Origin: Watersipora subatra
Lineage: Eukaryota > Bryozoa > Gymnolaemata > Cheilostomatida > Watersiporidae
Length of the DNA: 64,000 nt
Direction: 5' to 3'
NCBI RefSeq assembly: GCF_963576615.1
Contig: NC_088713.1
Location: 39,845,776-39,909,775, forward strand
Shown here: positions 10,255 to 62,255 of the stretch, one piece after another
Layout of the letters: every line of letters begins with the position of its first letter
Numbering within the stretch: position 1 is the stretch's first letter
Position numbers and translations under genes: made by a program
Notes under the pieces: generated by a model
Told to the model about the DNA's origin: nothing
The model's input: only the letters and a program-made list of their open reading frames with translations
The model's database searches: none

Positions 10255-10564
10255 TGTTGATCAGCTTTCCATAAAGAAAGATCAAATCTTTACAACGTGT
10301 TCTTTTTGCACATGCGCATAAAATTTATTATTTATAACCTCAAAACAGTAGTAAAAAACTTACTGAAATTGCTCAAATTTTTAGTTTTAATTTTTAGCGT
10401 TGTTTTTAAAATAAATACAACGTTTTAAAAAAGGTCTATCGAAAACGGCAAAAATGTCGGGTTTGTCGGTTTTGGTACGCTGAGACATTGCTCGTAAACC
10501 GACAAAGGTCGGTCTTGGTACGCATAGGGTTAAAGACTCATTGTAATTCACCCTGCAAGCTTAC

Positions 10565-10765
10565 TTCTATTTAGGATGTTGATACCCCAAACGCAATATC
10601 GTTTCAGCAAATCTACTCGCCACCAGGGATTTGTTGCTCTTTGTGTATTAAGAAGGGAAGATTTTCCATCTCCTGGTGGAATGTATATTCCGTCTACTCC
10701 TTTCTCAGCTTCAAAGTTTGAGCTGTATGCACTAATCATTTTTGCTGGTTTTTCTGCAAAATTTA
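10565..10765 (-). CDS. fucolectin (FTP) domain, N-terminal exon
   Basis: A 201-nt exon between an acceptor (ctaagag, 10766-10767) and a donor (AATAGAA|GTAAGC, at 10564). The peptide reads VNFAEKPAKMISAYSSN, then a loop containing VDGIYIPPGDGKSS, then ATNPWWRVDLLKRYCVWGIN and ends ILNR. The order (N.A..KPA...S.Y, VDG, NPWWRVDL, I.I.NR) is diagnostic of the FTP/F5-8C fold of eel fucolectin and tachylectin-4. The exon starts in phase 1, matching the PAN-like exon upstream, so the two appear spliced. The piggyBac element starts 35 bp past its donor. The NPWWRVDL strand is intact and I see no stop or frameshift, so this exon looks functional. Confidence 0.8.
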
Positions 10766-10779
10766 CTCTTAGCACATCA

Positions 10780-36430: not shown

Positions 36431-37794
36431 ATTCATAGAGCCATGACAGTAACTTGAGTGTATCCTCAGAGAGTAATTATCCTCTCTTGTCAGTAGTAAT
36501 GGGATAAGTCCTACAAAGTGTTGATTACCCTCGAAATATGCAAACTGCACATGCACCGGCAGTAAAGTCAGAAATGAGTTATCTTCTTCTTTTAGTAGGG
36601 ATGAGATAACTCTGAGGAATTATTGCTAATTCATGGAATTTGAAAAAATTCACATCACATCAATCATCACTGGCGATGGAATGGCAAAATTATATTTGTT
36701 TTTGTGTCATTGCTAGCAAATGAAGTATGTTTAAATCAAAAATGATTCGATTTTTGGTCAAATGGTTTAAAAAGAAATTGGAAATTGTTCTTTTAGAATC
36801 AGTATCTGGAACCCATCTTTCTAAACTATTTTATTATAAAAAAATACATGTGACTTTGAGAGTATAGATAAGTCTCTCATAATGATCTAGAGAAAGGTGT
36901 GTAAAGGATTTTGTGTATAATAGGAACTTATATGCATACAAAACAGTGGCGACTGTTGGATTGGTACAGAAAGCCTGAACAATATGATACAATTAGTGCA
37001 AGGTAAAACAACTGCATGACATAGAACTGATACCAAACATTATTGAGACAAATAAAATAGTAGAAGTTACACATTGCGCAGATTCATATCATATCAGAAA
37101 ACCCACACACTGATGATATTCATTTCAAATTTTATGAACTACAAGATTTAGAATGCATGAACTACACAGAGTAAACTCAGATATGATGCCATCTGGTTCT
37201 TCAACATTATTGACATAAACCAGAGTAACATATTATAAGCAGTCTAATGAGAATGTCTTTATATGAATACCACAAAATAAAAATATAATATGGTAGATAG
37301 AGTTTTTATGTTTGACAAGCCATCTCTCGGAGCAGTAATATCATAAGGGATCAAAACGGCTATAAGGCCTGTCACTACCTTGAAATTTGTCTTTCAATTG
37401 GTCACGAAACGCTACAGTTGCCAATAGACCCGAAGACTGGCAGGGCAGAAAAGAGTTAGCAGGCGATTAATCAGGGTCAGGGGGGTTGTATCCAGGAAAC
37501 AAGAAGAGTTTCTTTTGAAGAGTACAACTCATATCTGGTTGTTGACCATTTCCATAGCGTATGCTTTGTTTTCTCACTTTCTCCCTAATCTATTGTAGCA
37601 GAAGACAGTGACAGTCAGTATACATTGGTAATGGTTCCATGAATATAGAGACACCAATACATAAGATACTTTTTTACAATTATCTGTGAAGGCAAATTGA
37701 ACACTTCAGCTAAAACCATTTTCCATAACCATAAAACTATCAGGTGTTAACGTAAGATCACCTGAAAATGCAGTTTCTTGTGCATTTCAGTAAA

Positions 37795-39170
37795 AGATTT
37801 GTCACAACGTGTTAACTAATTTCCAACAAACTATGGCTGAAGTTTTTTTTAAACATCTCAAATAAGTAGATACATGTTTACAGTTTTCATTCAAATAGTT
37901 TGATTCTATGTTGCTCTAGCAGTATTTAACATAGTTTCATGCATAAATTTATTCCAGTTTTAAAATAAAGGACCTCAGTAGACCTGTAGTTAAAGTCGAA
38001 AAGAAAAATGGCAGAAAATTTTGTTTAGAATTGAAGCAATTACTAGGAAAAGATGAGTAAATATCTGAAGATCATTTTTTTTAAATCTCGGAAAAGGTTT
38101 AGAAGTTATCACAAAATAGCTCTTTTGTATTTTCTATTTACACCCTGGAAAATTACACATGACGAAATGTAAAAAAATGTTTATCATCGGATATGGTGCA
38201 GTAACCCCTCTCCACTTGGAAGCCCACCTTTTGTTCTTTGTGAATAAACAATATTTATTAAAAACTGAAAATAAAGCTAATTTAATTATCTATATGTAAA
38301 AAATTAATATAAATAAATCCCTTTCCTATTCTGACCTAATGAGATTCTCCTGTAAGCATTGGTGTGCTAGCATAAGTCAAAACTCACTGTTCTCATGCTG
38401 TGCTATGTTTTTTTAGGTTTAAAAGCAAAATTTACTTGCTGCACTATTAAACATGCCTTTAAAATGTTCACTACTCTCCAAACTGTGTGATGAGCTTAAG
38501 ATGAAAAAAGAAAACTCATGCAATTTAAGAAAATGTATCTGTATTCGTTATGATAAATTTTGTTTTAAAAGTTATACTTTCTCCCATGTTTACAATTATG
38601 TGACTTTCTCACAGCAACCTCAATTAGACACAAGTCTGAAGTTTAAACTAATTTTTAACCAACTATGTTCGAAGCTTTGTGAAACATCTTGAATAATTAC
38701 ATACATGTTCACAGTTTCTCTTCATAAAGTTGGGTTCAATGTTGCTTTAATAAACTTTGACAGTTTATTATTTATACGTTTCCTTCAATGTTAAAACTGT
38801 GGACTTCAAACAGGAATGGCAATATAAGTGAAAAATGTAAATGGCAATGTTCTTGTTGAGGACTAGGACAAATACTTGCAAAATATGAGTAAATTTTTTC
38901 AGATTAGATATTTCAGAAAAATATCTGGTGAGCTCTTGTGGCTATCACAAGCAAAATGACTCTTTTGAATTATCTACCATGTAAAATCACTCATGACAAA
39001 ATGTCAAAAAAGCATCTATCATGGAATCTGGTATAGTAACTCCTTGTTAATTCACTATTCACTTTCCTGATCTCAGTACTTTGCAGTTAAAAATGTTCAA
39101 TAAAAAATAAAAACCTTAAAAAATTAATTAAAATCAAACATAAGTTAAAATGCAAAAATACATATACAAA
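37795..39170. repeat. ~0.8-kb internal tandem duplication
   Basis: The blocks 'aactaattt..aaccaactatg...gaagtt', 'aaacatct.gaataa.ta.atacatgtt.acagtt' and 'tttta.aactgtggactt' occur at about 37815-37985 and again at about 38645-38815. The following 'cacccatgacaaaatgt.aaaaaa' blocks also repeat (38155, 38990). A third partial copy lies at 39240-39480. These lie between the last two caspase exons of the downstream cassette and account for part of its extra length. Confidence 0.65.
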
Positions 39171-39734
39171 GAATACATAAAGTCTCTTTAATAGCCACAC
39201 ATGAAAAACCGGCATAAGCATCAGCGTGCCAGCAGCAGTCAGCATTTGCTATTTTAATGCTGTGCTATGCTTTTCAAGTGTGCAAGTGAAACGTTCTTGT
39301 GACACCATTCAGTGGGCCTCTCAAGTGTTTACTACTTTCAAAATCATGTAATGAACTTAAAACAAAGATAAATGCTTACAAGTCAATAATAAATATGTGT
39401 TTACTAGGCCTATATATGATAAAGGTAGTAAAAAGTTATACCCCCTCTCGTGTTTACAATCATGTGATTTCCTTATCACAATGAACACAGTTAATTACAA
39501 CTACAAATATTTAAACTAGAAAAAGCCCAACCTATGCCCCTGCTACATACATGTAAATGCATTTTTGAGCTTAAAATACTGGAAATGAAAGTGAAATATG
39601 AACTGAAAACCAATGAAGATAATTTCAATTTACTTACTCATTGTATAAATAATAAACATATGTTTAGCCCTTCCGCTACCAAAAACGTATTTATGTGTTT
39701 TCTAGGGTCGGGTGCCACAGAGGCATAATTTCGA

Positions 39735-39821
39735 TTTTTCCAGCAATTGCGTAGCAACTTCATTTTCTTATTAATTGACAACATAACCCATATATGCATA
39801 TATGTATAGATATATAAATAG

Positions 39822-39854
<33 letters not shown>

Positions 39855-40106
39855 CTTGTATATATATACATGTATATATATACTTGTATACAGTAGATGC
39901 AGTATGAACAGTCTCTTGCATGAAAGTGCTCAATATTAAAATATTAAAATAGAGCGATGTAAGTGCTCAATATTAAAATAGAGCGATGTAAATATATAAC
40001 CCATATATGCATATATATATACTTGTATATATATATGCATATATGGGTTATGTTGTCAACAAATAAGAAAATGAAGTTACTACGCAATTGCTGGATATAT
40101 ATACAG

Positions 40107-40148
<42 letters not shown>

Positions 40149-40154
40149 GTATAT

Positions 40155-40245
<91 letters not shown>
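39735..40245. repeat. TA array flanked by a ~60-bp inverted repeat
   Basis: 'ccagcaattgcgtagcaact' with 'tcattttcttatta' and 'gacaacataaccc' lies at 39739-39792. Its reverse complement lies at 40043-40096. Between them are TA/TATG repeats and two direct copies of 'gtgctcaatattaaaatag' (about 39927 and 39963). A long (TA)n array follows to 40245. The arms could extrude as a hairpin. Confidence 0.8.
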
Positions 40246-40247
<2 letters not shown>

Positions 40248-43200
40248 CTTATGGTGGATTGAACTTGAGTTCAGGGCTTTTACTTTATCTCGATTTTCAA
40301 AGTTTTGAGAAACACTTACAAAGTTGCTGCAACACTGCAGTGAAACGAGTTCTGTTGGGCCTATTTTGGTTTTTTCATCGCTATCAATGAAATACTTGCC
40401 TTAGCTGTCTAAAATTTCTTTATAGTCAATCCAAATATATTTTTCCATTAAATATTTAGGTTCCGTAGATATTTTTAAACATATTATGCTCATTCACCAG
40501 TCAATAAGTTTCATAGACTCCGAGCCACTTTTTTTATCTGAACCTCCCCAGATTCTGGCACTTGGATCGTGTAAGCGTTTGCACAAAAGTGCCAAAATGG
40601 CACCCAAAGAGCCAATAAGTCATGCAGTGGCTTATGCTGATCAGTCATAAAACATGCTGTTAATACATGTCAACTGAAAATTAACAAATAACCAAAATTG
40701 GTTATTTTATATCATTGTCAACCTCAACCAAGAGAATTGCAACCATATTCCTGCCAAACTGTAAGGAATGCGATATAAGTGTATGAATCCTGCCAAAAGC
40801 TGTTGTTAGATTTTATAAACTTTATTTGGTCGATGTAAAAAGTCTTTTTTCTCATTACTACACTTTTGTCAGTTGGATTGGGGCGAACATCGGCATATTA
40901 TTAATAAACCAATGCTTAATACGTAAAATAGAGTTAGAAGACAAAATTTTCATTATAAATAGGTTACTCTTACCTGTCTCTCAAACAGAGTCTTGAGGTC
41001 TCGATGGCAGGAATGTTTGAAAAGGGACTCAACAACAGCATTAATAAACCAGGAGCCGAATTGCGGGTGTCTATATGCCGAGTGACCTGTCACATTGGAA
41101 TAGAGTTTGAGCGCTCAACTAGCTATGGAGGTAGGTCAAGACAATCCTTTAGCATAGCATGTACTTGATACTAAGTAGGTTTACCTTTACAAGCTCACAA
41201 GAGCCAACAAGATCTAAAGAAATAGTTAAAATAAATGTTCAAAGAAATATGTTAATGAACAGCAAATGTATTCTCAATCATTCTAATTTTAAAAATTTTT
41301 ATTTGAAGCTGTAGTTAGTCATGGCATTTACCAGAAAAACTCACTTTCCAGATTAGCAGGTCATCAGTGCTCAAAACTGCATGAGACCCCAGTGGGTCCA
41401 TAAGATCAGAGGATGTGCTTGACCCTGAAGGTGTTGATAGGGATGCAGCTGAAGAAAGAGGAACTGTACTTGTAGATAAACCAGAAACCGATGGAGGAGA
41501 AGAACTTGGATGAGATGATGAAGCAGTAGGTTGATGGTCATTCACTACTCTGTCTTGCAGTCCTACAATAATAAAAATGCTATTGTTATTTGAGACATGT
41601 CATATATATTGTTTGTCGGAGGTTTAGTATTTTTAGTAACCAATTATAGGAAAAGTTAGAATAAAAGCATTTTGCCTTACAATATATAAACCATCGAGTA
41701 GATAACATGACTAGACTCTTACCAATATATGTAGGTTTCACGCTGATTGTGAGCCTTTTTCAAACCTGCCCATTATATTCCAATTGTCAAAAAGGTTTAG
41801 TCAAGAATTGCTTGGTGTTAATATAACAGTCGAGCCCAAAACCAATTTTACACAGAAATAAATTTTGTCAGACAATGGTCAGTCTGGGGACAATTTTAAA
41901 CAGATTATAAATTTGGGTACCTTAAGCAGTTACTCCTCACAGCGAATCACATTTCCAATTAAAGTAAACACTTAATTTGTTTATACATTTATGCATCTTT
42001 TTTGTTATGGTTGCAAACACAAGTAATAATTTTTTGACAGAGAATGTGCTTCAAAAAATGGTAGAGGTAATTTTAAGCTGTTTCCTTTTAGGCCTGTAAA
42101 TAGGGAAGGTGCTCCAAACACTTATTTATCGGATACGCGGCTGTTTACACTTACACTTACATAAGTCAAATGAAAATAAAAAATTACAAAAAGTTAAGTT
42201 AGCAAAAAGCTGGAAGATAATTGCTATAATTGAACTAGAATATTCTAAGTGCTTATTATAATAATTAAAATGTTTCTATAATAATTGACACTGGAGCTGT
42301 CTGCAAAACTTGCTCTGCCTAAATATAACACTGTTGGCACATCAGCTGGCGGGAATGCAGTTTAAAAGTAACAAAAAGCAGCAGAAACCAAGTAACTCAC
42401 TTCCAGAGCATGCCTGAATAATCACTAGTTTTGGTTTCCTGGCCATCGCTGGAAAATTCTGAGCATTTAAAGCTTAATTTATTTCTTTTCTTTTCACAAT
42501 TCTTTCATCAGTGCCATATACGCCTGTCTCAGAACCATGACTAAGGATGACCAACACAAACATCCCATAGTTTACATGTTCAGGCCTTCTTGTCTCATTT
42601 CTGATCATCTCCCACATGCGCTGAAAAGCAACAATTAAAAGCTTTTAATCTGGAAATTTGGTTAAATAATTGTATTTACAAATAGATTTGTGACACCTAT
42701 ACAGAATCAATACATTGTTGAGTCTAATTTTTAGGTTCAATTAAACTGTCAAAAGTGCTTGGCAGAAATATCTTAGAAAAATACCAACTATTTTACACTA
42801 TGGTAAAATTTAACAAAACTTGTATCTTTTTTATTTACGTTGCTACCATACTCAGCCTTGGTTGGGGTTTCATTCATTTTAATCATATAGCCAACAGCAC
42901 ACGGCCTACAGACTCTTGCGTGCTCATTTGTAATGCTAGTTTCTAGAATGTCTTCCTAATAAAAATCCAAGAACGTGCTTATAGATGGCGGTGGTCGCTA
43001 ATGCATGTAAATGCATCCACAGCAATCCACAGAGAATTAACTACAGCATCATTTCTATCGACATGTAAATTTAATAAAAACTATTTGTCAACAGCAACCC
43101 ATAAATTCATTTACCAAACGCTAAGTTTCAAGTTCAAACTTTACACACATGTACAAAATGTTGCTACATGTACATGTACCTGTTTTCAGGCCTTCAATGA

Positions 43201-48245: not shown

Positions 48246-48362
48246 TTAATCAGGGTCAGGTGGGTTGTATCCAGGGAACAAGAAGAGCTTTTTTTGAAGC
48301 GTGCTGATCATAATTGGATTTTGACCACCTTGATGATGTATGCTTCGGTTTCTTACTTTCTT
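48246..48362 (-). CDS. Roco-caspase exon 10 (p10 end and stop)
   Basis: A 117-nt exon after 'aatagattcag', phase 0. It reads KKVRNRSIHHQGGQNPIMIS, then TLQKKLFLFPGYNPPDPD and TAA (48246-48248). The 'q.P...sTL.kkLfFp' end is the last strand of the caspase fold. This block is conserved in the paralogue at 37467-37580, in contrast to flanking introns, which supports its being coding. Confidence 0.9.
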   Translation of the reverse strand, partial: KKVRNRSIHHQGGQNPIMISTLQKKLFLFPGYNPPDPD

Positions 48363-51300
48363 CTGAATCTATTGTAGTAGAAAACAAGGCCAGTCAGTAA
48401 AAATTGGCAACAGTTCAATGAATATGAAGTCTTTGCAATATGTAGGGTAATTATTTACAATTTTCTGTAAATAAAAATTGAACATGTCAGCTATAACCAC
48501 TTTTCATTGTACAAAAACATATTACGATCACCCAAACATAACAAATCTTTGGATATACGAAAACTCAGCAAGATTTGTTTTGATATGTGAACAAATTTTT
48601 AATTAACAAAATCTGAATCTTTCTGAAACATCTCAAACAAGTAGATACACGTTCACATTTTTTATTCATATAGTTGGATTCTTTGTTGGCCGGAGATTAT
48701 TTAAAAATTGTCATATTTTTGCTTCTTTCACAAGTTTATCTTAGACCATACAGATGAATGATCTAAGATTGACTGGTTGCTGTCTTTCTCAAAATCTTTG
48801 GAACAATTATTTAATATTTATTACAAAAAGGGCTTTCTTAATTTTCTTATTTAAGCATATGATAAAATGCCAAACAATCTAGCTTGAAATATAGCGCATT
48901 GCAAGTATTCGCTTATTCCTACATGCATCTAGACACTTGAAGTTATTTCCTCAACGTAACTTTCACTGATGATCAGTTATGAACAAATGAATCCAATAAG
49001 GCATTTTATTGTGTGTTGAACTTGCTTATTATAAGGTAAGTATTTGCAAATCTTATGAGCAAACACTGTTAATTAGCATTATCAAACACTTTAGCATAAA
49101 AACATTAAAACGTTTATTAAGATCTCACACCACTGCTTTCAAAATGCATTCCTATGGTTGCTCTTATTTGGTATTGAAGGATATTATGGTATCGGCAGAC
49201 CCGACTCAGTTTGAGTATTGTGGATCTTGGTGAAACCCAACCTAAGCAAATCTACAGTAACTATCCAAAAACTGTGAAGAGTATAGATGAGAATAAGATT
49301 CATTGAGAAATTATTGGATGAGATAAGCTTCTCATGTCCAATTTTGACTGTTTTTGGCTCATATTGGTACTTTTGTAATTTCATAAACAAATAAACCTGT
49401 AAATAACTAATATAAACACAAAAGACCTTCATCAAGGGCATCTGCATAAAATATCAACTGTATTACCCTTTACGAACAGCGCTAATCAAGAGAACTTACT
49501 TGCAAAATTTAAAACATCATACCATCAAAATACCGCCCTGATTCATTCCTGCATATAAACTATAATAATTGTGATGTGCGTAAACACGTTGTCAATAAAC
49601 TAGCACTCGATTCCAAAATAAAGAAAAGATTTAGCTAGAACATGTAGTTATTATTATAAGCACTGAGTGTGTTCACCTCTTACCTGTTTGTCAAAGAGAG
49701 TCTTGAGATCTCGATGGCAGGCATGTTTAGAAAGGGACTCAACAACAGCATTAACAAACCAGGAACCGTATCTGGTATGTCTATGTGCCACGTGACCTGT
49801 CAGAGTTTAAATGTATAACTAGTTACAGTATGTTGGATGATTAAAATCATGCTTAAACTGAAAATGTACTGAATACTAACAATGTTCACCTTTAAATGTC
49901 TTCTTGAGTACATTGGTCAGGTTATTAAAATATGCAATGAAATATATTGATGACCATTAATATTATGAATTAATTGTTTGAATTTGAAAATTATTAGGTT
50001 TACCAGGAAAACTGGCTTGCCAGATTATCAGGTCATCAGTGTCTAAGACTGCAGGAGACATGGGCATAAGCATTGGATCAGAGACTGTGTTTGGCTCTGG
50101 AGGTGTTGTCAGGGTTGTGGCTGAGCTAGAAGGAAATCCAATTGTAGGTGAATTTGTAATTGATGACAGGGGAAAACTTGGATGAAGTGATGAAGTGGAA
50201 GGTTGAGGGTCAGTCACCACTCTATCACGCAAGACTACAAAAAAGCAATTCATAATGTTTACCTTAAACATGTTAAAATATTGTAGATTGAGGTTTAATC
50301 ATTGATTGTAGGTTCACTAAAATTAGTAACCAATAACAACGAAACAATATGCCTTACAATATATAAGATTAACAGTGCTTAGCTGGTCAAACGCCTATTA
50401 ATAGAAATTATGTTTACTTTTGATGTGCAAAAATAATGTAAGATGGAGTTCTATTTATGAATAGCTTCAAGAAATATGTAACTCACCTCCAGTGCATGCC
50501 TGAATAATAAGTAATTTTGGTTTTCCGGCCATTGCTCGAAAGTTCTGAGCGTATAAAGCGTTATTTATTTCTGTTCTCTGCACCGTCATTCCATCAGTTC
50601 CGGATATCCCTGTCTCAGAACCATGACTAAGGATGACCAACACAAACATCCCATAGTTTGCATGCTCAGGCCTTCTTGTCTCATTTCTGATCACCTCCAA
50701 CATGTGCTGTAAGGCAACCATTAGAAGCTTTCAATTAAGAAATTGGGTTGACTAATTGTATTTACAAATAGATTTGTGACACCAATACTGAATCAAAACA
50801 TTGTTGAGTTTAATTTCTAAATTCCAGTAAAATGTTGGAAGTGGTTTGCAGCAATATCTCAGAAAAATATCAACTATTTTACAATGTGGTAACATTTAAC
50901 AAAATTTGTTGTATTTTATTTACATTGCTATCATACTCAGCCTTGGTTGGGGTTTCATTCATTTTAATCAAATAGCCAACAGCACACAGCCTACGGACTG
51001 CTGTGTGTTGATTTGCAATGCAAGTTTCTAGAATGCCTTCATAACAAAATTCCAAGAACGTGCTGATAGATAGCGGTGGTCCCTAATGCATGCAGCGGGT
51101 GAGCTTGAGAGGCTGGTGCCCAGGAACCGGGTAGAGTTTTGAAGTCAGATAATTTTATTGAACTGACAGAAAACACGTAACAAATGCGTGTGAAGTTTGA
51201 ATAAATTCAGCTAAAATATGCAGAAGCATAGCAGTTGCAGTCAGCAAAGTGTTGTTGTGGTTTTACAAAATTATTCTAGATAAACTTGATAGCCGTAAAA

Positions 51301-54300
51301 CTACAATACAGAGAATTAACTACAGCATCATTTCTATCGACAATTAAATTTAATAAAAACCATTTGTCAACAGCAACCCATGAATTTAATTAACAGACGC
51401 TAAGTTTCACGTTCAAACATTACAAAAATATACAAAATGTTGCTACATGTACATGTACATGTTTTCAGGCCTTCAATTAACACATTGGTATGCCGCCTAA
51501 GTAGTATGACTGCAAGTTATCAAATGCAAATATCAAATGATTACGCTAGTAATCTCCTATTTCAGACCGCGCTCTGTTAAGGCATATATTATACCTGTAA
51601 CTCAATCTACTTATTATAGACTGATTTCTACTAAAGTTGTCACAAATTACATACCATCAAAAATATTTAATATAAAAAATTACCTGTTTGGTTATCAAAA
51701 ATACAATAGATGGCTGCATGTAAATTGTTTAGTCATTTAAAAGAACATAGAATTATAATTATGAATGAATAGAAAACGGATTACAAAAGTGCCCCAGCAG
51801 TCGATAACAAGTGCTAGCGCTTCTAATTCCTCACTGCTACAATAGCATTTATTAATACACACACACATACATGTACACATGTTCAAGCACACAAACACAC
51901 CCAAACATGAGCACGCACAAATGCGCTCACTCACACAAATGCAAGCTTGCGAATGGCACAAGAAATACACACAAACTCACAAACACATGAACACACTAAC
52001 ATCCATACCGATGCGCACACTGCAGTAACACAAGCACCAATACTAGCACTAACGCATGCACTAACTTGAGCACTAGTACTCTAATACACACAAACATAAT
52101 AGCAATGTGAAAATTTTTAACATAAATTACATTGCATGCAGTAACATTAAAATGGTTATAGCTCATTTGAGATATCACAGCATTAAAAGGCTTTGATATC
52201 CTAATAGTTAAAACATGCAAAAACGAAAGTTCAAATGTAATATTCAGTTTTTACAAACCCAAATTTTTAAATATCAGAGCTTATTTATCGAGTTTAAATA
52301 AAGTTTTCAATAATAAATTTCTCTTGAACTATAGTTAAAATAATGAAAGCAGATTTCACTACAAACCTGACCAGAAAGATTTTCCTCCCTAAAGCAACAA
52401 AATCCAAGTTTATCAAAAAGACACAAGATCCTCTGACCATCTCGAGTAGAACCTTGTCTGTCATCTGAATGTATGAAATTTATGTTGTTAATAAGAAGGC
52501 AGTGTCCTCTTATTGTGCTCATTCTGTACACCTGTGTTAACAAAAGGTACAAATAATGACTTAGTTCAGTTCATATAAAGTTGGTTACAGCTAATATTAA
52601 CTACATGGAATGACCTTTACATTGCTTAGCATGCATTTAACTAGTTACTATTAAACTGTTTATTATTCTACAGGGCTAAAAAGGGCTCACATCATCTGTG
52701 AAAAAGAGATCTTTGACATAAGATTTAGAACATGGTTTAACAGTCAGTTCCTCAGAAGCCTGGTCTGAAGTATCAGAGAGCTCACTGTCACTTGACTCTT
52801 CATCTTGTTGTGGTTGAACAGCATTTGTAAGCCTTTCTGGTTGTTGTTGAACAGGTACCACATCCTGCTCTGTGGCTGTAAAATTAGGTGCTAGTCATAA
52901 AATCATAAAATTATGTACTATGATGTCATGATGATGTGTTTATAAAAAAAACTAGTAGAACAAAGTATCAAATTGTAATAAATCATTATTATAGAACTTA
53001 CAAACAACAATAAACTATTTACTGCAATGCTATGTTATATGTTTTCGCAGCCAGTGCAACATATTTTAGTAATTTTGTTAAGACCTATGGGTGTTTTAGA
53101 TAGTTTAAAATTGTCTGATTTTGATAATGGTTTTTGTTAGTGGGTAAAAAAGTTATATAAACTGATATCAGTATTTAAATACAAATAAATATGACGTGTA
53201 TTGCTTATTGTATTTTTTAAATACTAAAAACATTAAGAACTTATCAAACATTTTATCTGCTTCACAAAGAATTATTGGTCTAAATCATATTCAGTTGTAT
53301 TGCAAGCAGTTTTTTAAATAAAGAGAAATTAAAAATAGATACAAACTAACGAAAATTCTGGAAAATTAGGCTAAATTATTATGCTGACGTATCATTTTTT
53401 TAACATAACTGTTATATTCTTGCCTCAAAAAAGGATTGTAAGCTAGCCATAGTAATTCATTATTAATTCTCTACTATTGAATCAATTAAACTTTAAGGAT
53501 TTTATAGGCAGTATATGGACATTTAGTAAAATGCATGACAAGTCATTGATAGTCAGTCTCGCATAGTGTTTCAAAGTTTAGGTTATTTATTTCGAGATTT
53601 ACTTAGCCACAATTTAAGTCATTGGTTTGCTATAATTGAAATAAAATACTGTTTAAACTGCGGATCAGCGACCAAGTCTTATTAGAGCTGTAAAATATAT
53701 CTGTTGGAATAGTATATCAAAATTTTTTAAATAGGCATGTGTACCTGTGGGTGTCACAGAGAGAGTGTCTAGATAGTCTTGTATGGTCCGTTTCTTCTCT
53801 TCATCAAGCTGATGACCTACATATAGATTGGTAAAACATTAATGAGGCATAATAAACATGTTAGTAGAGAATAAACCACTTTAGTAAATGGCATTTGTTG
53901 ACATTATAACTTACAAGGCCTTATGAGGGCTGATGGTACAGTTGGCCTTTCAATTCCAGTTTGCTCTGCATATTTTTCACAAGTCAGCTTTTCGACCCCC
54001 GAATATCGTTTGACTATGAGTGCATCACCTTCGGGACAAAACCAATCTGGATCAACAAAATCTTCTGGGTTTGAATCTCTTAAAAAAAGGCAATGACCAC
54101 AGAAAATGCGAATATATGGTTCACTTGCAATCCAAGCAGTTGAAAGCAGCTTCAAGATGCAATTGGTTGCGTTTTCGAGCTGTTTCCACATATCTCCAAA
54201 ATGAGGTTTGTCAGAACCAGCTTGCAGAGTAACTTTTTGACCATGGACATCATGTACGAAATTCACTTGCCACTCATTATGATAGACCACAGCACCATTT

Positions 54301-57300
54301 TCAGCAATCCTCTGTGTGTTTATGTCATTTGAAAACTCGTTTAGCACAGCAACTGTCATTAGCTGGAACCCATAGTTGGGAAGGGGAAGTCCTCTCAGGT
54401 TGATGTGTAGCTGTAGCTTAAATCTGCTTTCTTCCCCCCAAAGCTTGACTCTTTTTGAGGCAAAATATGGTATAGCATATCCGTATTTATGCTTTTCAGC
54501 ATTCAACACTATGGGGCCTTGTACAATCCAAAAACTTTTTAACAACTCAACGCTGATGTCAGGCTGAAATTTTGATTCCTTAGCAAGGAGATGGTGCAAT
54601 AGTGCCTCATCAAGGATGCCATTTCGGGTGAAGTTTTTGACAAACTGCTGATACAAAGCAAAACCGATGGATTTCCCCTTAAAATTAAACTCATGAAATT
54701 TCTGTGCTCTGTCTTTCCAAAGGCTGTCTGACCGGTGATGGAAGAGAATGGAAATCATTTCAGTCATTGCTGGGATGTCACGGAATATGTAAGTTTTTAA
54801 AGACTCTACTGACTGAAACCACAGAATGTCACCTATGTTATGCATGTAACGCAAAATTTGCAATGACTTCTTTCTAGGATAGCTAGCCTGGACTTCTGAA
54901 ACAGTGACAACAGGTTCTGTCAAACCATTTTCAACAAAGTTGCACATATCATTCCATTCCTGTGGTAAAAAAACCTTGTGCTTCATGCAACGAAAATCAA
55001 GAGCTTTTCTGAGTTCTTCTATTTGATGTGACTCTTTGCCAAACACGAATGTACTCTGTTCATTGAACACATCAGCTCCCTTGTTGGATAAAAATATGAT
55101 TTTATGGAGAACCTGCTTTTTTGCTCTACTTGGTAGTTGCTCAACACCTAGCATCTCATCTCGCAGTTCCTTAGAATGATTGAACAGACACTCTTTGTAA
55201 CTCTGTAGTTCTGAATCTGAAACTTTATCAGAGTGAGTCAGAACTAAAATAGGAGACTCTACTAACAAGGGACATGCAAGATAGATGTGAGACATCCATT
55301 TCCAGCAGAGTTCCTCAGTTGCTGCTTTTTCCCCTTCATTTTGGGCCAAAGATTTAAACTCATTCAAATTGACCACGATCATAGGAATGTTGCGTTCCTT
55401 TAAGATGTACCGATAGGTAATATGATATATTTCATGTCCTCCGTGATCAATCATCTTGGCGTATGAATGATCTAGCTGCACTCCTTGTATTTGAAATACC
55501 TTTGTTGTTTCATCTAGCATGTTGGTGTCAAAACGGTTTGTGAGTACGCGGCTTCTTGAGTGCAGAGATCTAATCAGGCTTGTTTTTCCTGACATTGAAT
55601 GCCCAACGACCGAAACAGGAACAATTGTAAGTTCGATTTGTTTTTGTGATGCAAGGTCTTCCAAAAATGATTTTATTGCAGCTAAACCTTGTTTAGCTAC
55701 TGCATAAGGAGGCGAAACTAAATTAAAGCAGCGATCACATTCAAAAATATTGAGATGTTTGAGGTTCAGAATCTTCTCATCTATCTTTGTTAAATTTTGG
55801 ATGCCAAAGAGGCTCATATAACGTAAGTTTTGCATTTTGAACACACAAGATGGAATTTCTGTTAGCTTGTTGTCACTGGAGTTTGACTCTTCCAACTGAT
55901 TCTGTTGATGCAGCCTGCAATCAGACAAGATGTATAAAAAGGATTAGCATTATTTAAGTTCAATCTGTGTGTGGAAACTTGTACCTTGTTTATCAGACAA
56001 AAACACTTCAATTTTACTCTTACATGCCAATGTAGTGTAATTCAAATATATAAACTAATAGATTCTTTCTATATCAACCTTGCCTTTTGAATAAAATAAA
56101 ACTTAACCTTATTTTTATTGAAGTCAACAGCAGTTAATACCAAATCAGTGCAAAAACAAATCTTCGAAAGAGATACTGCTTAGCAACAAAATCCTACCAT
56201 AACAAATTAGCTCAGTTGGGGTATGATATTCAGAACATTGCTTAATCACTCATATTACAAACAAAGCAAATCAAGGAAACTTCTCTTTTCTCAGCTATAT
56301 ACCAATATGTTAAAAATTGACTACTGTAGGTACTGCGAAATGTTCAGCAGTGAGTTTATTCAAATTTTAAAGTTTTGATATTGCAACATATATTATATAA
56401 AGGAAACACTTAATTGTCTCTATAATTTGTTAAGTTTGTTTGCATACATTTGTTTGCATACTTAACATACTTTGTTGTTACAGGCAGTTAATTAAAAATT
56501 CATTTAAAACTTTGAAAGATAAACCAAATTAAGCTAGCGCAGGAACAAAACCGGTGTTATTCATCACAGCCCCTCGCCGAACTGATTAGAAATAAAACAC
56601 CCTTACTGATCGGGTGTATATTAGTGTTTGCTAAATCTATTTTGTCAGTAAACTAAGTTATTGTGAAATAGAAAGCAAACTATTAATTTAAAGAAATTAT
56701 TCAGTTCAACCAACATTATATTTTTAGCTTTTATTTGATGCTTCAATTAAATACAATTTTTCAGCTTATAGTGCTACTATCCATAACTACATGTAATATC
56801 ATATAAACTGAGATGACTAGCTAATAATCTGTTGGTGTATTTGTTGTTGTTAATTATTATTTTCTATGAATCATTATAAATAAATATAAGGAATTAAATA
56901 TAAATTCTAAATATAAGCATAGGATGTAGTTGAAGAAAAAGCTGTTGTTTATTAAGTTTGAATATTCAGTTTGTTGACAGAAAATTTATTAGCTGAGTTC
57001 ATTTTGACAGTAGAGAACAAAAGTGAGAGCTTTATATGAAATAACTATGGGGACCAATAAGCAACAAGCTTTCAGAAAGCACAATGAGAAAAGCACAATA
57101 AAAAGCACAATTACAACCATGAAACTGCATGGTATTATAGCAACATGAATTTAATCTTTCTTATGAATTTCTGTCCTATAGTGTAATGCAAAAAATTGGC
57201 TGTTTTGAGTTCAATACTTGATTTAGTAAACATTTTAAGATTAGGGTATTATAAAGTCTAATTATTAAAATATTAGTATTCTTCTGACAATATTTAAGAA

Positions 57301-60300
57301 ATAAAATGAAGCTATTAAAAAGATTTTTAACGGACACATTTGCCAATTTTGAACTGTTATATTTTGCATATTAACTATTGTATAATAACTTTGTCGGTGT
57401 AAAATTAAATTTTGGCGACCAAATTGCATTCATTTTGAATACAATTAGGAGTTACAAATTTATGTAGAAGATAAAAAGATAATATAACCTGCAAGTTCAT
57501 GACAAGCTCAAGTAGGCCTTTAAGAAAATTACTTACATCAGCTTTCTTCTACAACCTTCGGTAGTGTGCTGTGTAGTGCAAGCCAGACTTGATTGCCACA
57601 TGTGGTTTTCTCGACAAACATATACAATTTAGTTCATTGGCTGAATTTTTCAGTAACAACACGAAAATAGTTCACAAAAAAATGGTTCAATGATTTAATA
57701 TGACATTAATCAAGGTCAAAAATAATGTAAACGGCTACAATGAAATCCTATAATAACTTGTAAATATAGTTAATATTCCACCTTATAAGAGGTCCGCAAA
57801 ACAGTATTTTAATTAAAATTTAATTTAGTTTTTGAGATTTTAGCAAACCTTGTTGGTAATTATTAAAACAAGAAATAAATAAGATGACACTTTAAAAATT
57901 TGTACTCAATTTGTAGGGAGATGTTAAAGAGCTAAAAAATAACAATTGTCTTTTGTTTCAGCAGTTCGAAATACTCCATTACTGCGTGAATGAGCACTAA
58001 AAATGAGCACAGGCTCCATGGCTAAATTCAGTGGTGCAAAAATAGTTTATTTAGGTTTTAGTGATTAGCTTATGACTTATGACACTAACTCTTAAGATAT
58101 TCAATGTGATTAGAATTTATTTTTACTTGTTTAAATTTTTAACTTTTTACAAAGTCTGATTTTATCCTAAATTTGAGCTTTTTATTTCACTGTTATATTG
58201 TAACTAGATAAAAGTATGATACTACGATTCTTTAAATAAAATGCAAAGTTACAAACACAATCGTTTATGCGCTTAGCATATTTCAGACAAATAAGCTACC
58301 AGTCGGCACAATGGATGTTACTTGAATAAATTTTTTTCAACTGAATACCAGTTACTAAAAAAAATATGAGGGTTTTTGGAATGAAACAATATTATTTGCA
58401 AATATGTTAGTTGTAACAGCCAAACCATGCCCAAGCGTTTCTTTTTCTCAAAGAGTAATGGTCTTTGGTGACATTTAGTTTCAGTAACCACTGTGGTTTT
58501 GTAAATTAGGTGATTTTAGCTGCTAGTTATGGCTATATCGTTTATTGATAATTTGGCAGAAAATATATTTTCATATATTTCTTACTGGCTAGATTTTGAT
58601 AATGTTGTGGAAGTCAGCGCTGACTAGCGCAAGTGGGTTCTGCATACAAGTTGTTACACCGAATGAGTAATAGCTCTCATGCACAACTGTAATTGTTGCA
58701 AACAAAGTGTCTGATGAATAATGGATTTTATTCACGCAAGCTCGCACTGTTCTTAATGCAGATTAAGAACGGAGCTCTCAGTCTTTAGTTCTGTCGTTTG
58801 TAGCCTGTATCGCTAGCTCTGTGCTCTTTGTTCCCCGTCTTAACACTGAAGCACCTTTGCTTATATAGCAAGGGCTGAGTGTTAATCAACGGGCTTTCCA
58901 CGTAAGCTGGCTTTTAAATTATAGGGCTTATCTGAGAATAGCTGAATGCTTATGGCAATTAAAGCAGCTCAGCTTAGTAAATCCATCACAATAATTCGCA
59001 AAACAACACTTACAAGATGATGACAAATAGTAACAGCCAAAAAATTCTTGTAACATACCAGTGAAGATTAGTAAACATAAAAATGAACAATCATTACAAC
59101 CAATCTTTGCTATCACTTTTTAGTAAATATTTAATAACCTAATTTAACATATTTTTTTAGAAGCAACACAAATTTAAGTCAAGAAAAATGCCGCAAGAAT
59201 AATTGTGACATTATTTAAGGACAGAATTAATGTAACCAGCTGCAATGACATTCTATAATAACTTGTAGATGCAGTTAATCTTTTTCTTTATACTAGGGTT
59301 GTAACGCAGTATTTACAGTACAATAAGCATTAGTTCATGAGATTTTAGCAAAGTTTATAGCAGAGGATTAAATAAGTAATTTAATAGGTTGGCAACTAGA
59401 CCTAACCTCACAGAGTTGTAAAACTGGTTTATTTAGGCAGTGATTAGCTTATGACACTACTCTTTAAGTTCTTAGATGTGATTGAAGTTTAATATTTATT
59501 GCTTAAGACTTTCAGTCTGATTTATTAAAAAAATAAGTTTTTTGTTTTAATGTTCTAGTGTGATTGTATAAAAGTATGACATTACAATTTTATAAATAAA
59601 ACACAACAATTTCCATAATAATCTGCAAGTAGGATCAATGATGGAAATTTACTAATTACACAATCTTTTATGTGCTTATCAGTGTTTGGGACAAATAAGC
59701 TACCAGTCAATGTTATTCGAGTAAACTTTACTCAAATGAAAGCTACTGTTTTTCAAAAGAAATTGGAATAACTTATTGCATGAAACACGTTTAATAAAAA
59801 ATCATTTTTTGTAGCAACAAAACCATGTTACAACAATTTCTTGCATTTGTATAGAACTATCATCTAGAGTGATCATTGACAGTTTACTTTTAACAACAAC
59901 TGATTTTGTAAATTATCCGTTTCACTGTGGTATGCGCGTGTATGCAAAATCTATGGCCAACTTCCGTATGCACATTTCTTTGCAAATTTTCCGATCTTTA
60001 GGACTTTTATGGTATTGAGAGGGATGTCCAAAGATTTCTCTATAAAATTAACCTAAAATAATGAAGCAACTTTGAATTTCTGTTAGGGAATTTCCAGCTT
60101 GAAAATGAACATTTTTGTCTTTCTGATGTTCAAGCCAAATAGTGTGACTATGGCGTTCATAAGTAGCTCCCGAGTTGGAAAATAGAGAATTACTTATTTT
60201 GATGACATCATAGCCTAATCATTTTCAGATTTCTGTGATTATACAAATAGTTAAAGTAGCGCCATTGGCTCTGATAGTGATGAAAGTAATAGTTTTGTAA

Positions 60301-62255
60301 GAGTAATAAACATTATGGAGGATCGTTTTAGCTTCGCATCGATCGTGGCTTCACATTTCTTTATCATCGCACAAGGTATAGATTAATTGATTTTTTGCAT
60401 AGCAATGTTAGTTAACCCTTTCACTGCCAACCATGTACAAATTCAAGTATCTGTCGAGTAATAGTTTTGTAAGAATAAGGAACATTGTAGAATATCGTTT
60501 TAGCTTTGTGGTGATCGTATAGCTACAAAGCTTCACATAGCTTTATCAATGCATCAAAGAATAGACGCAGTAAAAATTTTGTATAGCAGTGTTTGTTAAC
60601 ATGTTAGTAAGTAAAATATCTAACTAAAATATTCTAGATTGAGTTTGAAGTTGAAAAATAATGTATACGTTTTTTTAAGCAAAAATGACAATCTTGGGTA
60701 AAATAGCTGGCATTAGGCTGATAGCTTCCTTTGTACATAAAAGGCAGTGAGAGGATTAAATGACATTAATTTTCTGTTGAGTGCTTAAATTATAATGGGG
60801 AATTTGTTTCTTATAATTGAGTGTAGTTTGCTAATTCCAGAAACACCAATAAATAGGATGCTGAATGATAAGAACTTAAAGTTAGCAGCAGAGACATGTT
60901 TGTAACAGACCAGTAAAGGTCAGTAAGTATAATAATATAAAGATCATTACAACCATTTTACTGTTAATACAATGATAGTAAAAATTCTAAAGAATCGTCA
61001 TTGATATCGATCAGTGACAATTTTATTTCAGTAACCGCTGTGGTTAGTACACCAACTGGCTTTATTTGCTAGTTAGAGGTAAGTTTTTTATATTGTTTTT
61101 AAATCAGCAGGCTAAATTAGTTTGTGTTTGTTCTTATTAAAATAGACGGCTTATAAATTTTTTACATGTTGGGTTTTGCTAATCCACAAAAGAGTACTTA
61201 AAAGGTGTTGACAGATAAGAACTTAGAATTATTAGCAGAAACATTTTTGTAACAAACAAGCATTTTAAATTTAAAAACAATTATTACAAACATTTTACTG
61301 TAGATAGAAATATAGCTAGGTGTATTTTCAGTCTTCAGACTTTACTCACTCTTCAAGTCGATCTGTTTCATTCCATTCCTCAAACCACTGAGCCATATCT
61401 GGTTTAGCCTGTGGGGAGATATTTGCGTTGCAGAGTGCAAGGTCTTTTAGTTGAGTAAGCTTTGACAGACTGTAATGCATAAATAAAGGAAAAAAACTAA
61501 GGCATATAAAAGCTACAGACAATATTTGAACATTTTGATTGTTGGATATAAAGTAGCAATACATTGCAACCCACTTCAACTAGATTTATTATCAGTTAAT
61601 TTATCAAGTGACTGTTAGCTTTTTTGGACAGGTTTACTAATAAAACTAAATCCCTTTATGTGAGAACCTAAAATGGTTAATGCAAGTGTAATGTTGTAAC
61701 AATTCTTATAAAAAATGTTGTTGGTTAGGAACAAATAACTCCTTGTAAATTTCAGCTTAGTTTTTTCATGAAGCTTTTTAGTCATAAAATTATTATCATA
61801 ATAAACATAACAAATGATGCCTACTATCCATCACTACATTTAATGTCATAAAGACATTGTTTCAGGTTTGTTACAAGTAATAGTATTATTTCTGCTTAGA
61901 CTGCCAAGCCAAGCTTTTCATCAAAAGCTGTGAGATTTATTTATGACTTCAGCTAATATAAGCAGTTTATTGTCAAACAATGTTCATTAGCTAGTTCGTG
62001 AGGATCACTTGAGATTTTACAAGTTTTCAAGTTTTTAACCTAAGGAAGCTCCGAATTAACACTAAGTTTATTTTTTCTACTACATGTAATTTTGAATTTT
62101 TAATGACTTTTCGTACACGCGCTAAAATTAGCTTAATTGTTATTTTCCAGCAACAGCTAGTTATCTATCACAACAGCTAATATATCTCACCTTCTGGGGC
62201 AAGTTATACTAGTATTTGGAGCGAATCTCCCAACTATTGCGAGTTTTGGTACCAT
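48246..62255 (-). CDS. LRR-Roc-COR-caspase fusion protein (spliced gene, 10 exons)
   Basis: Ten exons, transcribed right to left: 62191-62255, 61350-61469, 53915-55914, 53745-53816, 52691-52875, 52367-52531, 50487-50706, 50004-50234, 49684-49796, 48246-48362. Their lengths sum to 3288 nt. Junction phases (2,2,1,1,0,0,1,1,0) all match and the frame is open to a TAA, giving 1095 residues. Domains: LRR at about 15-120; Roc GTPase at 157-345 with Walker A GHSMSGKTS (Lys172), DHGG (218) and THSD (288); COR at about 375-560; a Glu/Asp/Ser-rich linker at 730-814; caspase p20 at 815-942 with His897 (LSHG) and Cys940 (QACTGG); an S/T/P linker; p10 from about 1009 with Arg1025 before GSWF and the terminal strand LQKKLFLFP. 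Roc-COR modules are GTP-controlled dimerisation switches, and caspases are activated by induced proximity. A cytosolic, GTP- or ligand-gated cell-death or immune protease is therefore inferred. No transmembrane segment or signal peptide is seen. Exon 1 is the least certain. Confidence 0.8.
49684..49796 (-). CDS. Roco-caspase exon 9 (p10 core)
   Basis: A 113-nt exon. It reads HVAHRHTRYGSWFVNAVVES, then LSKHACHRDLKTLFDKQ. R....GSWF is the caspase S1-pocket Arg and the substrate-binding strand. The spacing (Arg, four residues, GSWF) equals that of caspase-3. Donor CAG|GTAAGA, phase 0. Confidence 0.95.
50004..50234 (-). CDS. Roco-caspase exon 8 (interdomain linker, start of p10)
   Basis: A 231-nt exon. 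Some 60 residues rich in Ser, Thr and Pro follow VLRDRVVTD, and the exon ends VLDTDDLIIWQASFPG. The last part equals the first p10 strand of caspases ('aD.LiaysT.pG'). The linker is much longer than in most effector caspases and begins and ends with Asp-containing candidate processing sites. The paralogous exon at 41332-41562 has the same length but a different Ser/Pro sequence. Confidence 0.9.
50487..50706 (-). CDS. Roco-caspase exon 7 (caspase catalytic His and Cys)
   Basis: A 220-nt exon between 'ttgccttacag' and CTGGAG|GTGAGT. It reads NYGMFVLVILSHGSETGISG, TDGMTVQRTEINNALYAQNF, then GKPKLLIIQACTGG. LSHG holds the catalytic His and QACTGG the catalytic Cys. The QACxG pentapeptide is that of true caspases. 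No stop is present, in contrast to the paralogous exon at 42401-42620. Confidence 0.95.
51850..52090. repeat. CA-rich imperfect simple repeat
   Basis: CACA, CACAAACA and GCACTAAC-type units, imperfect, in the intron between exons 6 and 7, at the edge of the segmental duplication. The minus-strand Cys/Val/Leu-rich frames here are artefacts. Confidence 0.8.
52367..52531 (-). CDS. Roco-caspase exon 6 (caspase p20, N-terminal half)
   Basis: A 165-nt, phase 0 exon between 'ttgttaacacag' and GGTCAG|GTTTGT. It reads VYRMSTIRGHCLLINNINF, then DRQGSTRDGQRILCLFDKLG and FCCFREENLSGQ. It matches the start of the caspase fold ('Y.M...RG.clIINN..F', 'R.Gt..D...l...F..LgF.v'), including the p20 Arg (839) of the substrate pocket. 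It has no counterpart in the downstream duplicate cassette. Confidence 0.9.
52691..52875 (-). CDS. Roco-caspase exon 5 (acidic linker)
   Basis: A 185-nt exon between 'aattttacag' and GATGAT|GTGAGC. It reads Gln-rich PVQQQPERLTNAVQPQQDEE, then SSDSELSDTSDQASEELTVK and finally KDLFFTDD just before the caspase fold. It contains several Asp-ending tetrapeptides (ELSD, DTSD, FTDD) that could serve as caspase cleavage sites, releasing the protease from the Roco part. Cleavage is inference. Confidence 0.8.
53745..53816 (-). CDS. Roco-caspase exon 4 (linker)
   Basis: A 72-nt exon between 'tatatgtag' and ACAG|GTACAC, phase 1 in and out. It reads HQLDEEKKRTIQDYLDTLS and VTPT, a short charged helix-like linker. 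Phase continuity on both sides is the main support. Confidence 0.7.
53915..55914 (-). CDS. Roco-caspase exon 3 (LRR, Roc GTPase, COR)
   Basis: A single 2000-nt exon. It begins at an acceptor (ttgtctgattgcag), so the upstream in-frame Met is not a start. Two LRRs come first (NKLTEIPSCVFKMQNLRYMS, then IDEKILNLKHLNIF). Next is the Roc domain with SVVGHSMSGKTSLIRSLHS (P loop), MIDHGGHE (G3), and VLTHSDK (G4-like, the THxD form usual in Roc). The COR domain follows, with ILRYMHNIGDILWFQ, IFRDIPAMTEMISILFHHRS and a long C-terminal half. A typical donor (CCTT|GTAAGT) ends it in phase 1. Read-through into the intron meets TAA within three codons. A transcript polyadenylated in that intron would encode a caspase-free Roco protein similar in layout to MFHAS1-type proteins. 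Confidence 0.9.
55915..57530. other. intron 2 of the Roco-caspase gene, no other feature
   Basis: AT-rich sequence with no coding match. It continues to 61349 with the repeats listed separately. Confidence 0.5.
60416..60755. mobile_element. TTAA-type MITE, complete
   Basis: TTAA at 60412-60415 and 60756-60759 flank a 340-bp element. Its ends are CCCTTTCACTGCC and, read inwards from the right, TCCTCTCACTGCC. No coding capacity. It lies in intron 2 of the Roco-caspase gene. Related copies are at 811 and about 29560-29891. Confidence 0.75.
61350..61469 (-). CDS. Roco-caspase exon 2 (LRR)
   Basis: A 120-nt exon between 'atgcattacag' and GAAGA|GTGAGT, phase 2 in and out. It reads LSKLTQLKDLALCNANISP, then DMAQWFEEWNETDRLEE. 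The L..L..L..L.L.N pattern is a leucine-rich repeat. A symmetric phase lets it be skipped or duplicated without a frameshift. Surrounding DNA contains further diverged copies of its flanks. Confidence 0.7.
62191..62255 (-). CDS. Roco-caspase exon 1 (candidate start)
   Basis: ATG at 62253-62255, 21 codons (MVPKLAIVGRF, then NTSITCPR) and a CAGAAG|GTGAGA donor, phase 2. Joined to the next exon it gives ITCPRSLSKLTQLKDLALCN, a good leucine-rich repeat across the junction. An in-frame TGA lies 15 codons or fewer upstream, so this would be the first coding exon unless an acceptor lies in the short gap. No signal peptide is evident. Confidence 0.5.

Follow-up and report, generated by a model that had tools for sequence, protein, structure and literature searches.

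A probable fusion of an LRR-Roco GTPase with a caspase in a large gene family of the bryozoan Watersipora subatra

Analysis of a 64,000-nucleotide stretch of the Watersipora subatra genome (contig NC_088713.1, positions 39,845,776 to 39,909,775; hereafter the window) suggests, with a probability that we put at about 70%, that it carries a member of a large bryozoan gene family encoding LRR-Roc-COR-linker-caspase proteins, with sensor and executioner in one chain. More than 100 related copies give this family the appearance of an extensive repertoire of receptors that lead directly from danger to death. The parts of the window copy, together with a second caspase cassette, are as follows:

62255-62191, minus strand: exon 1 of a preliminary description of this DNA (ATG...), probably outside the gene; no similarity support found
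61469-61350, minus strand: exon 2, a divergent exon of LRR type and the last of these, LSKLTQLKDLALCN...; flanked by an AG acceptor and a GT donor, entered and left in phase 2
55914-53915, minus strand: exon 3, the Roco exon (2000 nt), with the last LRRs, the Roc GTPase and COR
53816-53745, minus strand: exon 4, first piece of the Roco-caspase linker, HQLDEEKKRTIQDYLDTL; acceptor and phase common to 37/37 loci
52875-52691, minus strand: exon 5, acidic linker SDSELSDT...VKDLF; phase-0 donor in 19/20 loci examined
52531-52367, minus strand: exon 6, first half of the caspase p20, VYRMSTIRGHCLLINN; AG and phase 0 in 18/20 loci examined
50706-50487, minus strand: exon 7, second p20 half, with catalytic His897 and Cys940 (QACTG); Pfam Peptidase_C14, 1.4e-13
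50234-50004, minus strand: exon 8, linker between p20 and p10 that contains Asp residues, its end LDTDDLIIW lying at the p10 start; read from the spliced frame
49796-49684, minus strand: exon 9, caspase p10 with the S1-pocket Arg1025 (RHTRYGSWF); read from the spliced frame
48368-48246, minus strand: exon 10, end of p10 and TAA stop; 72.5% identity to the end of protein P0029
42623-37470, minus strand: second, decayed caspase cassette, located by tblastn with paralogue proteins

The preliminary description had joined ten exons in phase into a frame of about 1095 codons. Exons 2 to 10 do join via GT-AG introns in one frame, open from exon 2 to the TAA that caspase exon 10 supplies, and His897, Cys940 and Arg1025 are intact at the positions it gave; the frame including exon 1 measures 3294 nt (1097 codons plus stop) vs. 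the 3288 first reported. This frame is nonetheless a truncation: past the right window edge there are ten full LRR exons plus a truncated one, on the minus strand and phase-compatible with exon 2, which makes the gene longer than that model. The full upstream exons are phase 2, 141 nt long and hold about two LRRs each, and with their matching phase the former exon 1 is probably not part of the gene. The truncated one is the nearest upstream of exon 2 (window-equivalent 64597), and exon 2 itself matches the LRR-exon consensus and the last LRR exon of protein P0010 weakly (E 0.05-0.12). Inside the window the LRR part is limited to exon 2 and the beginning of exon 3, with the remainder beyond the edge.

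The decisive comparative evidence comes from the family as a whole. The Roco exon ends with the same donor and phase and is followed by the same next exon in all 37 loci compared (window copy and 36 others), agreement beyond chance as had been proposed from the exon phases. Among the matches listed, 101 of 109 Roco loci are followed within 15 kb by a caspase exon on the same strand, vs. a mean of 6 and a maximum of 15 in the shifted control; 8 have no caspase, and at no locus does one lie upstream or on the opposite strand. The 109 loci, partial or stop-bearing ones included, were merged from 67 matches and a second search, of whose 51 rows 50 were used, the one left out being a weak 71-residue match inside an already listed copy; the 183 caspase places comprise 150 listed of 158 matches, 31 added places (including C9:18458672) and two from fetched stretches, both counts being lower bounds. 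Eighty-two of the 183 do not hold the nearest position downstream of any listed Roco exon; part of them are additional exons of those same genes, and others may belong to unscored Roco copies or to none. Junction conservation and family-wide pairing lead us to reject chance splicing of exons and make the Roco-caspase fusion very probably real. Database models point the same way, with ten NCBI-named W. subatra proteins, which we take from their isoform-X style names to be RefSeq predictions, aligning through both Roco and caspase, and with the Pfam order LRR, Roc, caspase in P0005, P0006 and P0009; the claim of one fused gene is thus strongly supported.

The Roco exon encodes a predicted Roc GTPase domain that, as expected of a Roco protein, has a P-loop and switch motifs. 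In the window copy the P-loop GHSMSGKT is intact, DHGGHE and THSDK are also present, and in Pfam Roc reaches 9.8e-5 (23 bits, where the cut-off is 27), while COR-A gives a weak match of 0.0036 (17.6 bits vs. a cut-off of 35.3). The exon also aligns with the Roc of Branchiostoma belcheri protein P0046, itself above the Pfam cut-off at 54.5 bits, and in the region after Roc its residues 353-545 align with P0046 972-1161 (2e-13), a stretch overlapping COR-A 938-1080 (4.8e-4, below cut-off) and COR-B 1121-1242 (3.9e-9, above). By this relatedness, a putative COR directly follows Roc. Searching the genome with the COR-A Pfam profile gave 2 matches only, marking this profile as a poor probe for the W. 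subatra family; the Roco exon itself scored 67 matches of 37-100% identity, self included. In Foldseek, the predicted structure of P0004 matched LRRK1 first, with 600-700 columns aligned to LRRK1/LRRK2 but an rmsd of 7-10 Å; the AlphaFold model used came from a 35-sequence run, a six-sequence run (pLDDT 47.2) being unused. Judged by dN/dS (0.18-0.28 vs. eight chosen paralogues), the Roco exon is under purifying selection. Near the COR end, four cysteines are invariant or nearly so (C580, C583, C620 and C642 of P0004), which suggests a metal site.

The caspase part of the window copy has the His-Cys dyad, QACxG, the S1-pocket Arg and both p20 and p10, and at the exon 8 Asp site just ahead of p10 the models of paralogues retain xTD or NVD. 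No Pfam match to a death-fold prodomain was obtained in five exon frames of the window copy, a set to which its N-terminus does not belong, or in P0004, P0005, P0006 or P0009. In a structure search the 50 VIA rows listed were caspases, with no Roco row among them, which is uninformative against a Roco fold. The second cassette holds copies of exons 7-10 (42623-42402, with an in-frame TAA; 41563-41330; 41087-40968; 37622-37470), and no copy of exon 6 was found in it by tblastn with paralogue proteins. The model of the 40.14 Mb paralogue, P0005, takes in the second of its two caspase cassettes. Of the linker exons, exon 5 is under weak constraint, and the junction of exon 4 to exon 5 was checked in the window copy and via database models; at one locus (L033), exons 5 and 6 were not found within 1.5 kb.

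Not all predicted proteins are fused, and we have weighed what this implies. Twelve of 21 W. subatra-named matches are without a caspase in Pfam, one of which (P0013) reaches half a p20, and many copies are named MFHAS1 homolog by NCBI. That a Roco gene and a caspase gene merely sit side by side, always co-inherited without a fused protein, could account for these Roco-only models and for one named caspase b-like, but we reject this as very improbable: besides the pairing, all 37 loci share the donor into a conserved linker exon; P0029, named as a caspase, starts in the Roco exon; the Roco-to-caspase gap is under 1.5 kb in 30 of the 55 pairs gauged; and the window-copy linker has no Met. On the other side, 4 of 8 readable paralogue linkers do hold one to three Met. 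More credible, although less likely than not, is that one locus makes two products, a Roco-only one by intron retention or polyadenylation after exon 4 and the spliced fusion, with their ratio setting a death threshold and the Roco-only form acting as brake or decoy. P0010, for instance, is Roco-only and ends (...LSVAPTGTHGF) about five codons beyond the exon-4 donor, despite its linker matching the C6:39.31 Mb copy, where caspase exons sit about 3 kb downstream; P0014 terminates in the linker; and in the window copy the read-through frame past exon 4 stays open for 26 residues. Such models, however, may be partial or low-coverage predictions, and the Roco-exon donor is kept at all 37 loci compared, exon 4 being linker already.

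It is also conceivable, if rather unlikely, that the family is functional while the window copy is decaying or silent; in favour of this are its divergent exon 2, the truncated LRR exon next upstream, the stop in its second cassette and its absence among the protein database matches, in which only candidates sharing words with the query were scored. Against this, exons 2-10 are open with their sites intact, ten further full LRR exons lie upstream, and the Roco dN/dS is 0.26-0.28 vs. the six C6 paralogues tested. A caspase that processes cytokine-like or structural substrates instead of killing, e.g. in zooid degeneration and regeneration, we consider improbable: bryozoan colonies do recycle zooid tissue, and the closest folds in the rows listed include inflammatory caspases, but nothing in the analysis ties these genes to tissue turnover, and family size would better fit recognition.

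Returning to the one-chain sensor and executioner, we surmise that the LRR fan would bind a microbial, damage or self/non-self ligand, that binding would shift the nucleotide and monomer/dimer state of Roc-COR, and that two tethered zymogens would thereby be brought together, with proximity activating the caspase. The caspase might then cut itself at the Asp of the interdomain linker, where LDTD immediately precedes p10, and perhaps also within the acidic stretch between Roco and p20; once released, the protease would kill or alarm the cell with no need of a separate adaptor. Such GTP- or LRR-controlled proximity activation is plausible; in the Chlorobium Roco protein the GTP form is mainly monomeric, according to the part of PMC6337361 cited here, so control may run opposite to a scheme in which GTP makes dimers. 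We also speculate, at odds well short of even, that more than 100 germline genes, whose phase-2 LRR exons are shuffled and may be alternatively spliced and whose downstream caspase cassettes are swappable, provide variable one-chain recognise-and-kill receptors for pathogen defence or colony allorecognition. Bryozoan immunity is little known. Animals usually keep sensor, adaptor and caspase separate (apoptosome, inflammasome, DISC); here these roles seem to be combined in a single chain that exists in about a hundred copies, making it testable whether a Roco GTPase cycle gates a caspase directly. Bryozoans are named among colonial animals with allo-incompatibility in the cited part of PMC8195603.

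The preliminary description knew of no animal protein with Roc-COR in place of a caspase prodomain; this does not hold, given the W. subatra proteins and two predicted B. belcheri ones already in databases. The two B. belcheri proteins are P0046 ('MFHAS1 homolog isoform X2', LRR-Roc-COR-caspase) and P0047 (LOC109465244, Roc-COR-caspase), with the same domain order as in W. subatra. B. belcheri is a deuterostome and the divergence is deep (caspase 25-30% identity for the window copy and P0009, Roc and COR 24-26%). When 15 caspases were placed in a tree, the ten Roco-caspases of Watersipora formed one group (99/99), and the amphioxus ones sat on long branches with unresolved placement. A common origin in one fusion event and convergence through two are both conceivable. 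Among the matches listed from the open PMC literature, none was by title and abstract start a paper on a bryozoan or animal Roc-COR-caspase. As far as our database and literature searches show, the architecture itself is already known, and what is new is the family size, the LRR-exon array and the phylum.

Among known systems, MFHAS1/MASL1-type proteins share the LRR-Roc-COR core; we know of no protease in the named prototype. LRRK1/LRRK2, unlike the W. subatra fusion, carry a kinase effector and relay the death signal in trans, LRRK2 acting upstream of caspase-8 via FADD in the passages cited of PMC5823876. Amphioxus LRRs-caspase and TNFR-caspase hybrid genes also fuse a sensor straight to a caspase, a proposed direct link from recognition to apoptosis (PMC2575513, in part); a whole-word find gave no occurrence of Roc or COR in its text. 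The brown-algal LRR-ROCO genes, candidate immune receptors, likewise have small, shuffled phase-2 LRR exons, of 72 bp and one LRR each in an LRR-ROC-COR-only protein, vs. 141 nt, about two LRRs and an added caspase in W. subatra (PMC11378527, sections cited). A further parallel is provided by the bacterial AP-GTPase (Roco) conflict proteins, with LRR, GTPase, COR and a variable C-terminal effector, caspase included among at least 24 alternatives, and several paralogues per genome (PMC8195603, in the part cited). The W. subatra family has this same predicted order, with LRR, Roc and caspase from P0005, P0006 and P0009 and COR via P0046; it differs in its intron-bearing gene, its animal-type p20/p10 caspase and the presence of a caspase exon downstream of 101 of 109 Roco loci among the matches listed. 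We regard it as an animal counterpart to both the bacterial LRR-Roco-caspase proteins and the exon-shuffled brown-algal genes.

Nine of the ten minus-strand exons that the preliminary description had joined into a fusion gene (48246..62255) hold, and the ten do form one frame with agreeing phases and GT-AG introns throughout, comprising 1097 codons plus stop rather than about 1095 if the first exon is included. His897, Cys940 (QACTG) and Arg1025 of the caspase were found in exons 6-10 as proposed, with a strong Pfam match for the p20 exon (1.4e-13). The Roc P-loop GHSMSGKT is encoded in exon 3 (the Roco exon), for which the Pfam scores of this copy are under cut-off for both Roc (23 bits, cut-off 27) and COR-A (17.6 bits, cut-off 35.3); COR identity of the region after Roc is assigned mainly because of its relatedness to P0046, a Branchiostoma belcheri protein with which Roco-exon residues 353-545 align (2e-13) across the greater part of its COR-A and the beginning of COR-B. 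Two further features flank this gene:

Window-equivalent 64597 to 83405, minus strand: LRR exon array of 141-nt phase-2 exons, outside the window and upstream of the gene.
Window 37470-42623, minus strand: second caspase cassette, copies of exons 7-10, downstream of the gene, its p20 copy interrupted by an in-frame TAA.

The upstream array (L051 and L052, past the right edge of the window) comprises one truncated LRR exon besides ten full ones of 47 residues, each preceded by AG and starting one base into a codon; the ten full exons end at the phase-2 position required by exon 2, with GT next in nine cases and GC in the tenth. The ATG exon at 62255, previously taken as the gene start, is without support and is dispensable given these LRR exons, and no start exon was found in about 20 kb of fetched upstream sequence. 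The complete protein of this copy probably resembles P0005, a many-LRR W. subatra protein of 1448 aa. Variation among 23 LRR exon units (ten from this gene and 13 pattern-picked from three paralogue models) was greatest at positions 38, 17, 15, 41, 39, 43, 28 and 36 of the 47, which largely fits a ligand face on the concave side of LRRs, position 28 being a possible exception.

The gene has many relatives in the assembly, taken to be that of the bryozoan Watersipora subatra (783,720,542 bases, with the window at C6:39845776-39909775; the published W. subatra assembly has 783.70 Mb in 11 chromosomes, PMC12902671). With the Roco exon as query, we obtained 67 scored matches, this copy included, at 37-100% identity, and 55 of them had a caspase exon on the same strand within 15 kb downstream, vs. 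none upstream and none on the opposite strand among the caspase matches listed; in 200 random shifts of the Roco positions by 20-300 kb, the number paired averaged 3.85 and never exceeded 9. Adding a second Roco query and further caspase places raised the set to 109 distinct Roco loci, 101 with a same-strand caspase within 15 kb downstream (median distance 1,672 bases; shifted control, mean 6.3 and maximum 15), eight without, and again none upstream or opposite among the matches listed. Among these eight, C9:15365162 has a stop within the matched stretch, and at L033 (C9:14883110) neither exon 5 nor exon 6 was seen within 1.5 kb. Conversely, 82 of the 183 caspase places are not the closest downstream caspase for any listed Roco exon, and caspases without Roco may therefore exist. 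Two caspase-like frames, at C3:67.35 Mb and C2:69.55 Mb, read DAS or DAN where QAC would stand; they are likely pseudo-caspases without the catalytic Cys motif and look like caspase frames without Roco.

The junction out of the Roco exon is conserved as well. In all 37 loci with sequence past the Roco-exon end (this copy and 36 others), where the donor motif was sought and the best-scoring exon 4 place taken (score 29-94), the exon stops at one shared codon of a ...P-C motif followed by a GT donor, and after an intron of 78-881 bases an AG acceptor opens the same exon 4 with unchanged phase. Following 20 loci further downstream, we found the exon-5 donor in position in 19 (all except L033) and the exon 6 acceptor in 18 (all except L033 and L045, the listed caspase of the latter being 10.9 kb off, beyond the stretch examined). 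Nine W. subatra proteins (P0004-P0009, P0011, P0015 and P0019) align with this copy through Roco and caspase; P0042 also spans both (two comparisons), and P0013 extends into half of p20. Models such as P0004, whose Roco exon matches this genome at 100% identity, and P0006 cross the junction of exons 4 and 5. P0029, named caspase b-like, begins already inside the Roco exon. P0040, P0041, P0043 and P0044 (853-1384 aa) have a caspase domain, three of the four also with a P-loop. The linker of this copy contains no Met, and one to three occur in 4 of 8 readable paralogue models. This copy itself was absent from the matches of three protein database searches.

A caspase Pfam match is absent from 12 of the 21 W. 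subatra-named matches of one of these searches. One of these, P0010, reads past the exon-4 splice donor and stops about five codons beyond it (LSVAPT then GTHGF) even though the matching DNA has caspase exons farther on, and a Roco-only product by intron retention after exon 4 is therefore possible. As judged from sequence, the Roco-caspase gene family is real, its parts and their linkage being visible there.

Ratios of computed dN and dS were 0.18-0.28 for the Roco exon against eight chosen paralogues. Against the copy at C6:39.13 Mb, caspase exons 6, 7 and 9 gave 0.29, 0.18 and 0.27, and linker exons 4, 5 and 8 gave 0.60, 0.89 and 0.59; against L010 (C6:39.31 Mb), exons 4, 5 and 6 gave 0.18, 0.69 and 0.27, all these exons being short. 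L010 and this copy are 92-98% identical in exons 5 and 6 vs. 81% in the Roco exon, a contrast that hints at gene conversion, or at an exchange of cassettes, among paralogues. The cassette at 37470-42623, where we found no exon-6 copy, is on sequence grounds a decayed tandem duplicate. The 40.14 Mb paralogue (L050, C6:40127000-40136900, plus C6:40145479) has two downstream p20 exons, both without stops; the caspase exons of P0005 match its second cassette at 100%, and the first is therefore unused in that model. Elsewhere in the window lie a transposase fragment (9451-9840, minus strand; DDE_Tnp_1_7, 1.8e-10), presumably of piggyBac type, and a weak galactose-binding match under cut-off (10548-10790, minus strand; F5_F8_type_C_2, 1.4e-4).

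We surmise that the LRR array would bind a ligand and that binding would shift the nucleotide state and the monomer/dimer state of Roc-COR. The Chlorobium Roco protein is mainly monomeric in its GTP form and dimeric when nucleotide-free (PMC6337361), and by analogy the activating step may thus be GTP loss or hydrolysis. The tethered caspases would then pair and self-cleave after Asp in the exon-8 linker; LDTD stands directly before p10 in this copy, and an xTD or NVD pattern occurs at the p20-p10 linker in 10 of 17 other models (15 W. subatra, 2 amphioxus).

The preliminary description knew of no animal protein in which Roc-COR replaces the caspase prodomain, but such proteins are predicted in B. 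belcheri, one LRR-Roc-COR-caspase and one Roc-COR-caspase. In our caspase tree the ten Watersipora Roco-caspases tried form one group (99/99); the bryozoan and amphioxus fusions may be one event or separate ones. Other combinations include P0045, an Ankyrin-RING-caspase that also fuses a repeat domain to a caspase, and P0048 (927 aa), with Roc, a CARD match just under cut-off and a partial caspase. In bacteria, LRR-AP-GTPase-COR proteins are described with at least 24 effector types including caspase (PMC8195603), and amphioxus LRR-caspase hybrids were proposed in 2008 as links from recognition to apoptosis (PMC2575513). The fused architecture itself is thus already known from precedents. Among the papers listed in literature searches, judged by title and opening of the abstract, none deals with a bryozoan family of this kind, and what is new seems to be the family scale, the LRR exon array and the phylum. 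The 141-nt phase-2 LRR exons of the W. subatra gene compare with 72-bp phase-2 exons in brown-algal ROCO genes, which are candidate immune receptors (PMC11378527).
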